From Puniceicoccaceae bacterium (GTDB lineage Bacteria; Verrucomicrobiota; Verrucomicrobiia; Opitutales; Opitutaceae): a stretch of 47,074 nt of DNA. Within the stretch, counting starts at the first letter, position 1. Each line of letters starts with the position of its first letter. The stretch spans positions 1 through 47,074 of the forward strand of contig REEB01000097.1 of assembly GCA_007695295.1 (NCBI GenBank), given 5' to 3'. The notes below the pieces were generated by a model. That model was not told the DNA's origin, did not search any database, and was given only the letters and a program-made list of their open reading frames with translations. Below, in pieces: positions 20,399-22,193 of this stretch. The position numbers and the translations under genes were made by a program.

Positions 20399-21316
20399 TC
20401 ATCGCTCGACCATGCGGTTGGCCGGATCCCGCGCCGCCCGCTCATCCGCCCAAGCCTGAAAGCCCCGCCGCAGCTTTTCTCCCTCACTCGCCGTGGTGAT
20501 GGAAAACCGGACCTGGTCAATGGAGCGCACCGGGGCCAGATCCTTCGTCGTGGAGGTCAGAAAACACCCTTCGAACCCTGGTAGTTCCTTCTCTCGCACA
20601 GGACGTTCATCCACCTTCCAGCCGACCAGACCCGCAAAGGCATGTAATAGCAACCGCCGGGTGATGCCATCGAGTATTCCACAGGCCAGGGAAGGCGCGA
20701 CCAAGGTGCGGCCGGTCCAGAAAACAATATTGCAGACGGCCGCTTCCGTCAGCTCCTCCCGCTCGTTCAGCATCAGGACTTCATCAGCGCCGCGCTCCCG
20801 CGCCTCCCGCAGGCAGAGCAGGTTGTTGAGATAATTTCCCGTCTTCCAGGCCGGGTTCAGCGACCAGATGGGGTTGCGTTTCAACGTCCGCGCAATACTC
20901 AGGCTGAGTCCGACCGCAGGGTTGGGAGGGGCCGCGAGTGGTTGGACCAAAATTACCCAGAAAGGATTATCCGCCAATCCGGGATCGAGCCCGATGGACC
21001 CTCCTCCACGGGACAACTGCAACCGTACATAATAGTCGCCCCGGAATTCCGGCCAGCGGACCCCATGTTCACGAATCGTGTTTCGCAGCTCTGCCCTCAA
21101 GCCCGCTTCCGTGAAGGGCACTTTGATGGCAAGCGCATCAGCCGACCGGTGAAGCCGGTCCCAATGTTCCTCAAAGGCGAAAAGGTGGCCCTGTCGCGTG
21201 CGCCAGACTTCATAAACCGCATCTCCGTAGAGGAACCCCCGATCGAGTGGTGAGATCGAGACTTCGCGGGCGTCGCGAATCACTCCAATGGTGTTTGCCA
21301 AAATTGGCGCGGCCAT
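20399..21316 (-). CDS. Class IV aminotransferase (branched-chain / D-amino acid type)
   Basis: This 305-residue PLP enzyme has fold type IV. It may be a branched-chain aminotransferase, D-alanine aminotransferase or aminodeoxychorismate lyase. The PLP lysine is K158 in SLNPAWKTGNYLNNLL. The family start (DRGFLYGDAVYEVWRT) and the PLP-phosphate segment ELTEAAVCNIVFW are clear, followed by GILDGITRRLLL. The KTGNYLNN and DEVLMLN segments lean to the IlvE side, but no substrate is certain. The start MAAPILANTIG at 21316 is preferred to an open extension of 59 codons. mgtE follows 49 bases downstream, so both may share a transcript. Confidence 0.88.
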   Translation of the reverse strand: MAAPILANTIGVIRDAREVSISPLDRGFLYGDAVYEVWRTRQGHLFAFEEHWDRLHRSADALAIKVPFTEAGLRAELRNTIREHGVRWPEFRGDYYVRLQLSRGGGSIGLDPGLADNPFWVILVQPLAAPPNPAVGLSLSIARTLKRNPIWSLNPAWKTGNYLNNLLCLREARERGADEVLMLNEREELTEAAVCNIVFWTGRTLVAPSLACGILDGITRRLLLHAFAGLVGWKVDERPVREKELPGFEGCFLTSTTKDLAPVRSIDQVRFSITTASEGEKLRRGFQAWADERAARDPANRMVER

Positions 21317-21493
21317 GGGACAAACCAAGAGAGCACGGTGCCCGCGGGCGAGCAAAATAACGACGCTTGAGACCCTCCACGGCGTGGTTCCGGTCCCCGG
21401 CGGCGGTGGATCAGGGACTGCTCCCAAGGAAAGGAGGGTTCCCCAATACCCGGGTGTGGTGGATTTCGCAGTGGTAGACAGCCCGCAGACCAC

Positions 21494-21520
21494 AAAAAAG
21501 CCCGCGGAAGACCGCGGGCT
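21494..21520 (-). terminator. Rho-independent terminator of the histone-like gene
   Basis: A 9-bp perfect stem (21499-21507 with 21512-21520, AGCCCGCGG/CCGCGGGCT) with a 4-base loop. On the minus strand it runs into six T (A at 21494-21499). It is 22 bases past the stop of the 21543-21989 gene. Confidence 0.92.
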
Positions 21521-21542
21521 CGATCCTGCAGAGGCGGAAAAA

Positions 21543-21989
21543 TCAGCGGGGCTTGGTCAGACCGAGAGCACGCTTGATGTTTTGCACCGTGGCCAGGCTG
21601 ACGCCGAACTCGCGGGCAAGCTGAGTGCTCTTGCGACCTTCCTTGAGATGGTCACCGATTTTCTGCTTGTCCTCCGCGGTCAAGCGGGCCCGCTTGCCCT
21701 TGCCTTTGCGGGCTGCCTTCTTGGCGGCGGTTTTTTTCGCCGCTTTGCCGGCGGCCTTTTTCGCGACCTTCCGGGCGGCCTTTTTCGCGGCTTTGCGCCC
21801 GGGGCGGCGACCACGGCGGGTAACGCCTCCCAGGCTGGTCAGAGCCTCGATCAGCTCTCCACGGGTTTCGTAACCCATGTCGGTGTGAAGCGAGGCCAGT
21901 TGCGCGGAGCGATCCTTCTCAATCGACTTCTCCAGCTGCTCGACTGCCTTGCGGGCTTTTTCCAGTTCGGTGAGTTTTTCAGTCAACAT
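21543..21989 (-). CDS. Histone H1-like Lys/Ala-rich protein fused to a helix-turn-helix
   Basis: This 148-residue basic protein has three parts. Residues 1-35 form a charged, coiled-coil-like helix (LTEKLTELEKARKAVEQLEK). Residues 58-100 are an H1-like tail of KKAA-type repeats beginning RRGRRPGRKAAKKAAR. Residues 103-146 form a helix-turn-helix (LTAEDKQKIGDHLKEG, then QLAREFGVSLATVQNIKRAL) of the kind found in recombinases and simple repressors. The parts suggest a nucleoid-associated protein that coats DNA with its tail, with some site preference from the HTH; this is inference. The start ML... at 21989 follows an AT-rich stretch (22000-22060), unusual here and likely to hold the promoter. 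It has its own terminator, so it is monocistronic. It is divergent from oppA. Confidence 0.85.
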   Translation of the reverse strand: MLTEKLTELEKARKAVEQLEKSIEKDRSAQLASLHTDMGYETRGELIEALTSLGGVTRRGRRPGRKAAKKAARKVAKKAAGKAAKKTAAKKAARKGKGKRARLTAEDKQKIGDHLKEGRKSTQLAREFGVSLATVQNIKRALGLTKPR

Positions 21990-22193
21990 ACAACCATGAT
22001 CAGAACACACTTGCATGGTTTAGCAACAGTATTATTACGAAAAATTCTGTCTTGATAGGGACTCGTTTCCAACGGCCCAATTCCTGCGGTTTGCCGCCTT
22101 CCGGAACACAGGGCGCCCGACCTGTCATCACGCCACTTGATGGAGGGAAGTTGCAGCGTTGCCAATGCGCCCAACACTGTTTCCATCGGGTGC

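Follow-up and report, generated by a model that had tools for sequence, protein, structure and literature searches.

Based on sequence comparison, structure prediction and analogy with named systems, we propose that a gene on the minus strand of the stretch of DNA analysed here (47,074 nucleotides, hereafter the window) encodes a vertically inherited, chromosomal DNA-binding protein of Opitutales that may work like the nucleoid or silencer proteins H-NS and Rok without being homologous to them; we hold this reading tentatively, at slightly short of an even chance. The order of the parts, the character of the linker and the lack of detectable H-NS and Lsr2 in 38 genomes together suggest a nucleoid or silencer-type protein. 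Comparison or prediction supports the two end domains, the variable basic linker between them, AT-hook-like cores, a wide presence in the taxonomic family and a conserved neighbour. The protein family appears to be undescribed in the literature searched, and its layout, built on a helix-turn-helix (HTH), resembles that of known nucleoid and silencer proteins; no description of it appeared among the titles and abstract openings listed from an open-access library, a search outside which most subscription papers and preprints lie.

The coding sequence at 21543..21989 on the minus strand is an open frame of 148 residues, from an ATG at 21989 to a stop codon at 21543–21545, which combines a coiled-coil-like helix, a basic linker and an HTH, and has homologues. 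A chance ORF was ruled out by a match at E ≤ 1e-3 in 24 of the 25 genomes that make up its taxonomic family, its own among them; across all genomes of this protein search there was such a match in 25 of 38. A plus-strand frame at the same place was also rejected, as the homologues fit the minus frame. An upstream ATG at 22016 was considered as the start; position 21989 is favoured because proteins of the family begin with MxxxKIKEL in the alignment and because a TTGC element lies 37 nt upstream of 21989. The gene is present as a single copy in its own genome, where the other three matches of the protein search had E > 1.

The conserved columns of the family alignment form two blocks, an N-terminal one with the consensus MVTxKIKELxAxxAKxAxLExxIAxExxxELAALPxKYGFxSxxxFIKAVK and a C-terminal one with the consensus RRxRAxITxETKxxVKxLVxAGKTGxEIAKxxGISLPSVQNIKKELGLVKAR. 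From an input of 56 sequences, AlphaFold2 predicted an N-terminal helical domain at residues 1–53 (21831..21989, minus strand; helices 2–37 and 43–53), which the alignment shows to be conserved in the family, and a C-terminal HTH domain at residues 100–148 (21546..21692, minus strand; helices 105–116, 121–128 and 132–141), also indicated by a weak Pfam match and by structure comparison. The model contains no beta strand, and its pLDDT per block is 93–98 for residues 1–50, 51–79 for residues 51–100 and 90–97 for residues 101–140; the N-terminal part modelled alone reached 95.8. An earlier note, made from the letters alone, had described a 148-aa frame at exactly 21543–21989, without naming the strand, and had joined a dimerisation-like helix, a Lys/Ala-rich tail and a C-terminal HTH in this one protein. 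The sequence confirms the frame, and the AlphaFold2 model supports a long helix at the N-terminus with a basic region between it and the HTH; the C-terminal segment, on whose fold that description depended, is predicted to be an HTH with high pLDDT.

For the N-terminal domain, structure comparison gave nothing at Z ≥ 2, and a Foldseek search of the N-terminal model against the PDB gave one insignificant match (E 5.5); the domain may nevertheless have a known fold. The HTH resembles those of GcrA, Hin, resolvase, Tc3 and homeodomains at Z 5 to 7, i.e., a common arrangement. When solved structures were searched by sequence, the window protein had no match at E ≤ 1, and the family profile had 12, only one of which fell under 0.001; this was the repetitive chain CAP REPEAT, matched via HTH-like repeats. 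The predicted recognition helix covers residues 132–141 (21567..21596, minus strand), and seven of the ten invariant columns of the alignment (S131, V135, N137, I138, K139, G143 and L144) are in or next to it. Because of these columns, a site preference of the HTH is plausible, as judged from alignment and model.

The likeness to GcrA raises the alternative of a regulator associated with RNA polymerase, in which the HTH would sit on promoters and another segment would contact the sigma factor. In VIA-align, the HTH indeed scores highest against two DNA-binding domains of GcrA (Z 7.0 with 48 residues aligned at rmsd 1.8, and Z 6.7 with 44 residues at rmsd 1.4); however, a Z under 8 can reflect the mere common three-helix arrangement, the rows of Hin and a serine recombinase (Z 6.5) are tied with them, no GcrA model is among the Pfam matches, and the matched HTH occupies residues 1–46 of GcrA, at the opposite end of the chain from the HTH of the window protein. 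We consider this alternative very improbable.

The region between the two domains is a basic Lys/Ala/Arg-rich linker of 46 residues (residues 54–99; 21693..21830, minus strand) with a net charge of +21 and lower pLDDT; its conformation is uncertain in the AlphaFold2 model, though residues 63–87 are drawn as a helix. Linkers measured between residues 53 and 100 in 95 distinct members range from 14 to 54 residues with a median of 22, that of the window being the third longest, and consist on average of 40% Lys+Arg and 1.3% Asp+Glu. In the sister clade (11 members), both end blocks are kept (hhalign probability 99, E 6e-18), and the stretch between them has 19 to 27 residues, with 29% Lys+Arg and 7% Ala. 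Given this spread in length and the Ala-poor basic linker of the sister clade, the basic linker is, on sequence comparison, the general feature and the H1-like Lys/Ala stretch a secondary elaboration, and an 'H1 tail' was ruled out as the defining feature. The tail of eukaryotic-H1 style that the earlier note had seen therefore holds as a Lys/Ala-rich stretch, and does not hold as a tail, because the stretch is flanked by two folded domains and is an internal linker. At 21721–21796 the DNA contains 3.2 tandem copies of a 24-bp repeat, which overlap the Lys/Ala-rich stretch, suggesting that the linker of the window protein may have grown by repeat expansion. The window protein shares a Lys/Ala-rich, low-complexity basic stretch with linker histone H1 of eukaryotes and with the H1-like tails of bacteria, such as Hc1 and the tail of HupB; the window stretch differs from these as an internal linker of variable length, and no linker-histone or HU model was matched. 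True C-terminal tails were observed elsewhere, i.e., a Lys/Ala/Pro-rich stretch after the HTH in the homologue at L098:6001-6546, and Ala/Pro-rich tails in several other homologues.

Within the linker, residues 58–66 (21792..21818, minus strand) read RRGRRPGRK, which we take to be AT-hook-like and whose core is enriched in family linkers. Three AT-hook-like patterns were tried. GRP/GR[KR]P was present in 27 of the 95 linkers, compared with 4.8 ± 2.0 and a maximum of 13 in 500 residue shuffles; RGR was weaker, with 20 of 95 against 10.7 ± 2.9 (maximum 20), and the combined core occurred in 37 of 95 against 10.0. Since the sequences are related but were counted as independent, the enrichment is inflated.

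Searches for known families gave a consistent result. Against Pfam at E ≤ 10, the window protein had only sub-threshold HTH matches and others below the cut-off, and in NCBIfam nothing came near the cut-offs, so that the profile search for the architecture that had been proposed found no Pfam or NCBIfam family which the full layout fits. One HTH model, HTH_23 (PF13384), scored 19.2 bits against a gathering cut-off of 24.6 for the window protein, and matched 23 of 26 members at E ≤ 0.01. Neither H-NS (PF00816) nor Lsr2 (PF11774) was matched by the window protein (E ≤ 10) or by the 26 members (E ≤ 0.01), and linker-histone, HU and GcrA models were absent from the Pfam matches of the same proteins. 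Rok, H-NS and Lsr2 were also absent among the structure-comparison matches listed (50 per comparison), which excludes none of them. At the genome level, H-NS was found in none of the 38 genomes (positive control, E. coli) and Lsr2 in none of 38 (positive control, Corynebacterium glutamicum), with HU detected in 37 of 38. As far as those models see, the silencer role is therefore vacant in these genomes.

As reviewed in PMC6936261, H-NS-like proteins consist of an N-terminal oligomerisation domain, an unstructured basic linker that helps to recruit the protein to DNA, and a C-terminal DNA-binding domain. The window family, by its predicted domains, has this order of modules in common with H-NS, MvaT and Lsr2, with a long predicted helix in the place of the oligomerisation domain, as well as basic AT-hook-like cores. 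It differs from them in that these cores sit in the linker, that its predicted DNA-binding domain is a three-helix HTH and that its N-terminal domain is not acidic family-wide; it has no Pfam match to H-NS or Lsr2. The net charges of N-terminal domain, linker and C-terminal domain are −3, +21 and +7 in the window protein, compared with means of +1.5, +8.9 and +6.5 in 95 members; the N-terminal value ranges from −4 to +10 across the family, so that an H-NS-like charge asymmetry is not general. Rok of Bacillus is described, in PMC6936261 and PMC9757077, as having two predicted N-terminal helices with a coiled-coil, a linker and a C-terminal domain of the HTH class; a helical N-terminus, a linker and an HTH-class C-terminus are likewise common to the window family. 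By those accounts, the Rok linker is neutral and its C-terminus a winged helix, whereas the window linker is strongly basic (net +21) and the window HTH is predicted to be resolvase-, GcrA- or homeodomain-like.

We examined the distribution of the family with several profiles. Profile A1 was built from 26 of the first 28 homologues, two with long tails (L004 and L006) being left out, and matched 144 of the 273 genomes sampled from the order. In at least 88 of the 144 the match spans most of the profile; some very long frames are counted here, as are three genomes of family f11, of which the one read (G286, locus L137) differs in its N-terminal part. Many matches in the order cover the HTH alone, and five of the 20 wider-group loci read (L130–L132, L136 and L137) have a different N-terminal part. 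In the remote order relatives L136 and L137 that part is followed by a linker rich in Lys and Ala and by a similar HTH, which reads VMNIKAAAGLTKKRK in L136; in these two the linker–HTH half may have recombined with another N-terminal domain, as read from their sequences.

The genome collection contained 182 related stretches, the best 80 of which come mostly from genomes named Opitutaceae, Opitutae, Opitutus or Verrucomicrobia. Locus counts were made on 78 of these 80, without L050 and L066, in which no start was found; profile A2 comprises 55 of the 80 loci and the window, and A3 comprises 45 and the window. A homologue with 63% identity lies in a metagenome-assembled genome labelled Elusimicrobia (L040; MGTX01000015.1, Elusimicrobia bacterium GWA2_66_18), which is either misnamed or misbinned, or carries a transferred homologue. 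Outside the order, A2 matched strongly in a single further family of the class, f56 (three genomes), the remaining matches, at E 1.3e-6 or weaker, being taken as noise. The sister-clade profile, A4, was made from 11 of the 20 order and class loci; L138 was kept out though seemingly of the same clade, and L139 and L140 are closer to the family of the window. It matched 27 of 288 genomes of a phylum-wide sample, all in the same family or order. Several genomes carry more than one copy, with four places in G005. No convincing copy was found in seven genomes of the taxonomic family that are 99–100% complete, five of them from one genus (G102, G172, G199, G246 and G287) and the others G004 and G265; none had an A2 match better than E 0.0046 or one of full length, and G172 reached E 5.7e-4 with A1. 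These seven genomes and the HTH-only matches in the order count, as sequence evidence, against the silencer reading.

The same distribution bears on an origin from a mobile element, in which the HTH of a resolvase, transposase or phage would have been taken up and the resulting DNA-binding protein retained by the host. The C-terminal fold is predicted to be common to the window protein and the homeodomain-like HTHs of resolvases, transposases and GcrA, with matches to HTH_23, HTH_7, Hin and resolvase, and 19 of 26 members have a match with E ≤ 0.01 to PHROG 686 ('HTH DNA binding protein'). In contrast to resolvases and transposases, the window frame has no catalytic domain, and such matches are weak and limited to the HTH and the linker end. 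One short-linker homologue, used as the query, had a single match among 72,556 plasmid records and none among 50,697 phage records. The plasmid match is a member of the family that Opitutaceae bacterium TAV5 carries on a mobilizable plasmid (L163:3001-3408; CP007054.1 89841-90248); its annotation as 'mucin' is evidently wrong. In addition, a viral contig (IMGVR_UViG_3300045996_002259) contains an ORF of 890 aa (L161:778-3450) with an N-terminal part that we take to be ParB-like, a Lys/Ala/Pro-rich linker and then the HTH of the family nearly unchanged (SISLPSVQNIKKEFGLIKPR); judging from the sequence, host and virus seem to have exchanged the HTH. The plasmid copy and the viral HTH speak for a mobile origin; the near absence from phage and plasmid records, the lack of a catalytic domain and a conserved neighbour at 45 of 78 loci speak against it, and we regard this origin as unlikely.

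That neighbour, directly downstream on the same strand in those 45 family loci, corresponds in the window to the ORF at 20399..21493 (minus strand), which we presume to be class IV aminotransferase-like and whose 5' part is probably non-coding; in 70 of the 78 loci the sequence extends downstream for 1500 nt or more. The other neighbours in the window, presumably OppA-like and MgtE-like, were found at none of the 78 loci at E ≤ 1e-8. A terminator-like hairpin with a T run (21498..21521, minus strand; stem of 10 pairs) starts 21 nt past the stop codon, which suggests that the gene is probably transcribed without the downstream neighbour. It has the longest stem among seven intrinsic terminator-like sites in the region, compared with 1.7 in shuffles.

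Upstream of the gene, TTGCTA at 22021..22026 (minus strand), 37 nt from the ATG, is a candidate −35 element or operator. Of 73 non-redundant upstreams from the family, 46 have TTGC at −33 to −41, as a CTTGCTATA element at a fixed distance to the start codon; a C stands before the TTGC in 41 of the 46, and a TATA-like stretch comes after it. These 73 are the 78 upstreams, window included, minus five near-identical ones; L106 is out, with the contig end too near, and L113 was retained though its start is called about eight residues too late. Between −55 and −22, TTGC occurs in 49 of 73 upstreams against 7.9 ± 2.6 in 200 shuffles, with an A/T enrichment 22 to 28 nt past it, as in a −35/−10 pair, and 15 of 73 contain the stricter pair of TTGC and TAnnnT, for which shuffles give 1.5. 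In the window, the −10 is a poor match and a consensus scan gives no sigma-70 promoter there. Shine-Dalgarno sequences were present in 8 of 73 upstreams, no excess over shuffles (9.1), and the conserved CTTGCTATA/TTGC element, at its promoter distance, would place the start of transcription at or close to the start codon and make the transcript leaderless or nearly so. Among 14 further loci read, six also have CTTGC about 53–66 nt upstream. Across the 78 loci, the octamer CTTGCTAT is present 20 times in own promoters and twice in the remainder of the same loci (1.62 Mb of strand), where base composition predicts about 12; this rarity raises the possibility that the octamer may double as an operator.

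Promoter and recognition helix together bring in the main rival to the silencer reading, an ordinary small sequence-specific regulator that would dimerise through its N-terminal helix and bind a fixed operator with its HTH, including the CTTGCTATA of its own promoter, the linker merely boosting affinity. The strongly conserved recognition helix suits such a regulator and counts against a silencer; the TTGC element of the own promoter, with its preceding C and TATA-like sequel, and the skew of CTTGCTAT toward own promoters point in the same direction, as does the moderate codon adaptation. The latter is 0.537, below all 12 ribosomal-region reference genes (0.585–0.759), which were picked by eye around the ribosomal L4 gene and themselves define the index; among 34 further ORFs taken from the window, 10 have higher values, and very high expression was dismissed for want of any sign in codon usage. 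On the other side, CTTGCTATA stands at the position of a −35 box and may be a promoter only, and a very basic linker of variable length with AT-hook-like cores exceeds what small site-specific regulators need. We see this regulator as a possibility to be taken seriously, if rather doubtful on balance.

The nucleoid or silencer-type reading, which we prefer, has to accommodate the evidence against it, i.e., an N-terminal domain that is non-acidic family-wide, the modest codon adaptation and the conserved recognition helix. Under this reading, the N-terminal helix would make dimers or oligomers, the HTH would steer the protein to preferred sites, and the basic linker, lengthened here to an H1-like stretch, would add non-specific and minor-groove binding. 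Binding would prefer AT, and the complexes would spread along or bridge DNA, damping transcription; the conserved element over the own promoter would be an autoregulatory site. In a more far-reaching form, the proteins would constitute an independently evolved xenogeneic-silencer or nucleoid family of Verrucomicrobiota (Opitutales) with a homeodomain-like HTH and an AT-hook-bearing linker, expanded to an H1-like form in the window protein so as to combine site recognition with broad coating; this form is conceivable, and we advance it with more doubt than belief.

H-NS, MvaT, Lsr2, Rok and MucR belong to different families and do one job, helping bacteria to tolerate foreign DNA, according to PMC6936261, PMC9757077 and other reports. 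If the proposed reading is true, Verrucomicrobiota would gain a candidate silencer, and an HTH-based design would be added to those named. The linkers of the family, which vary naturally from 14 to 54 residues, would also serve for gauging the contribution of a basic H1-like linker, and the predicted site in the own promoter would make a first binding test cheap.
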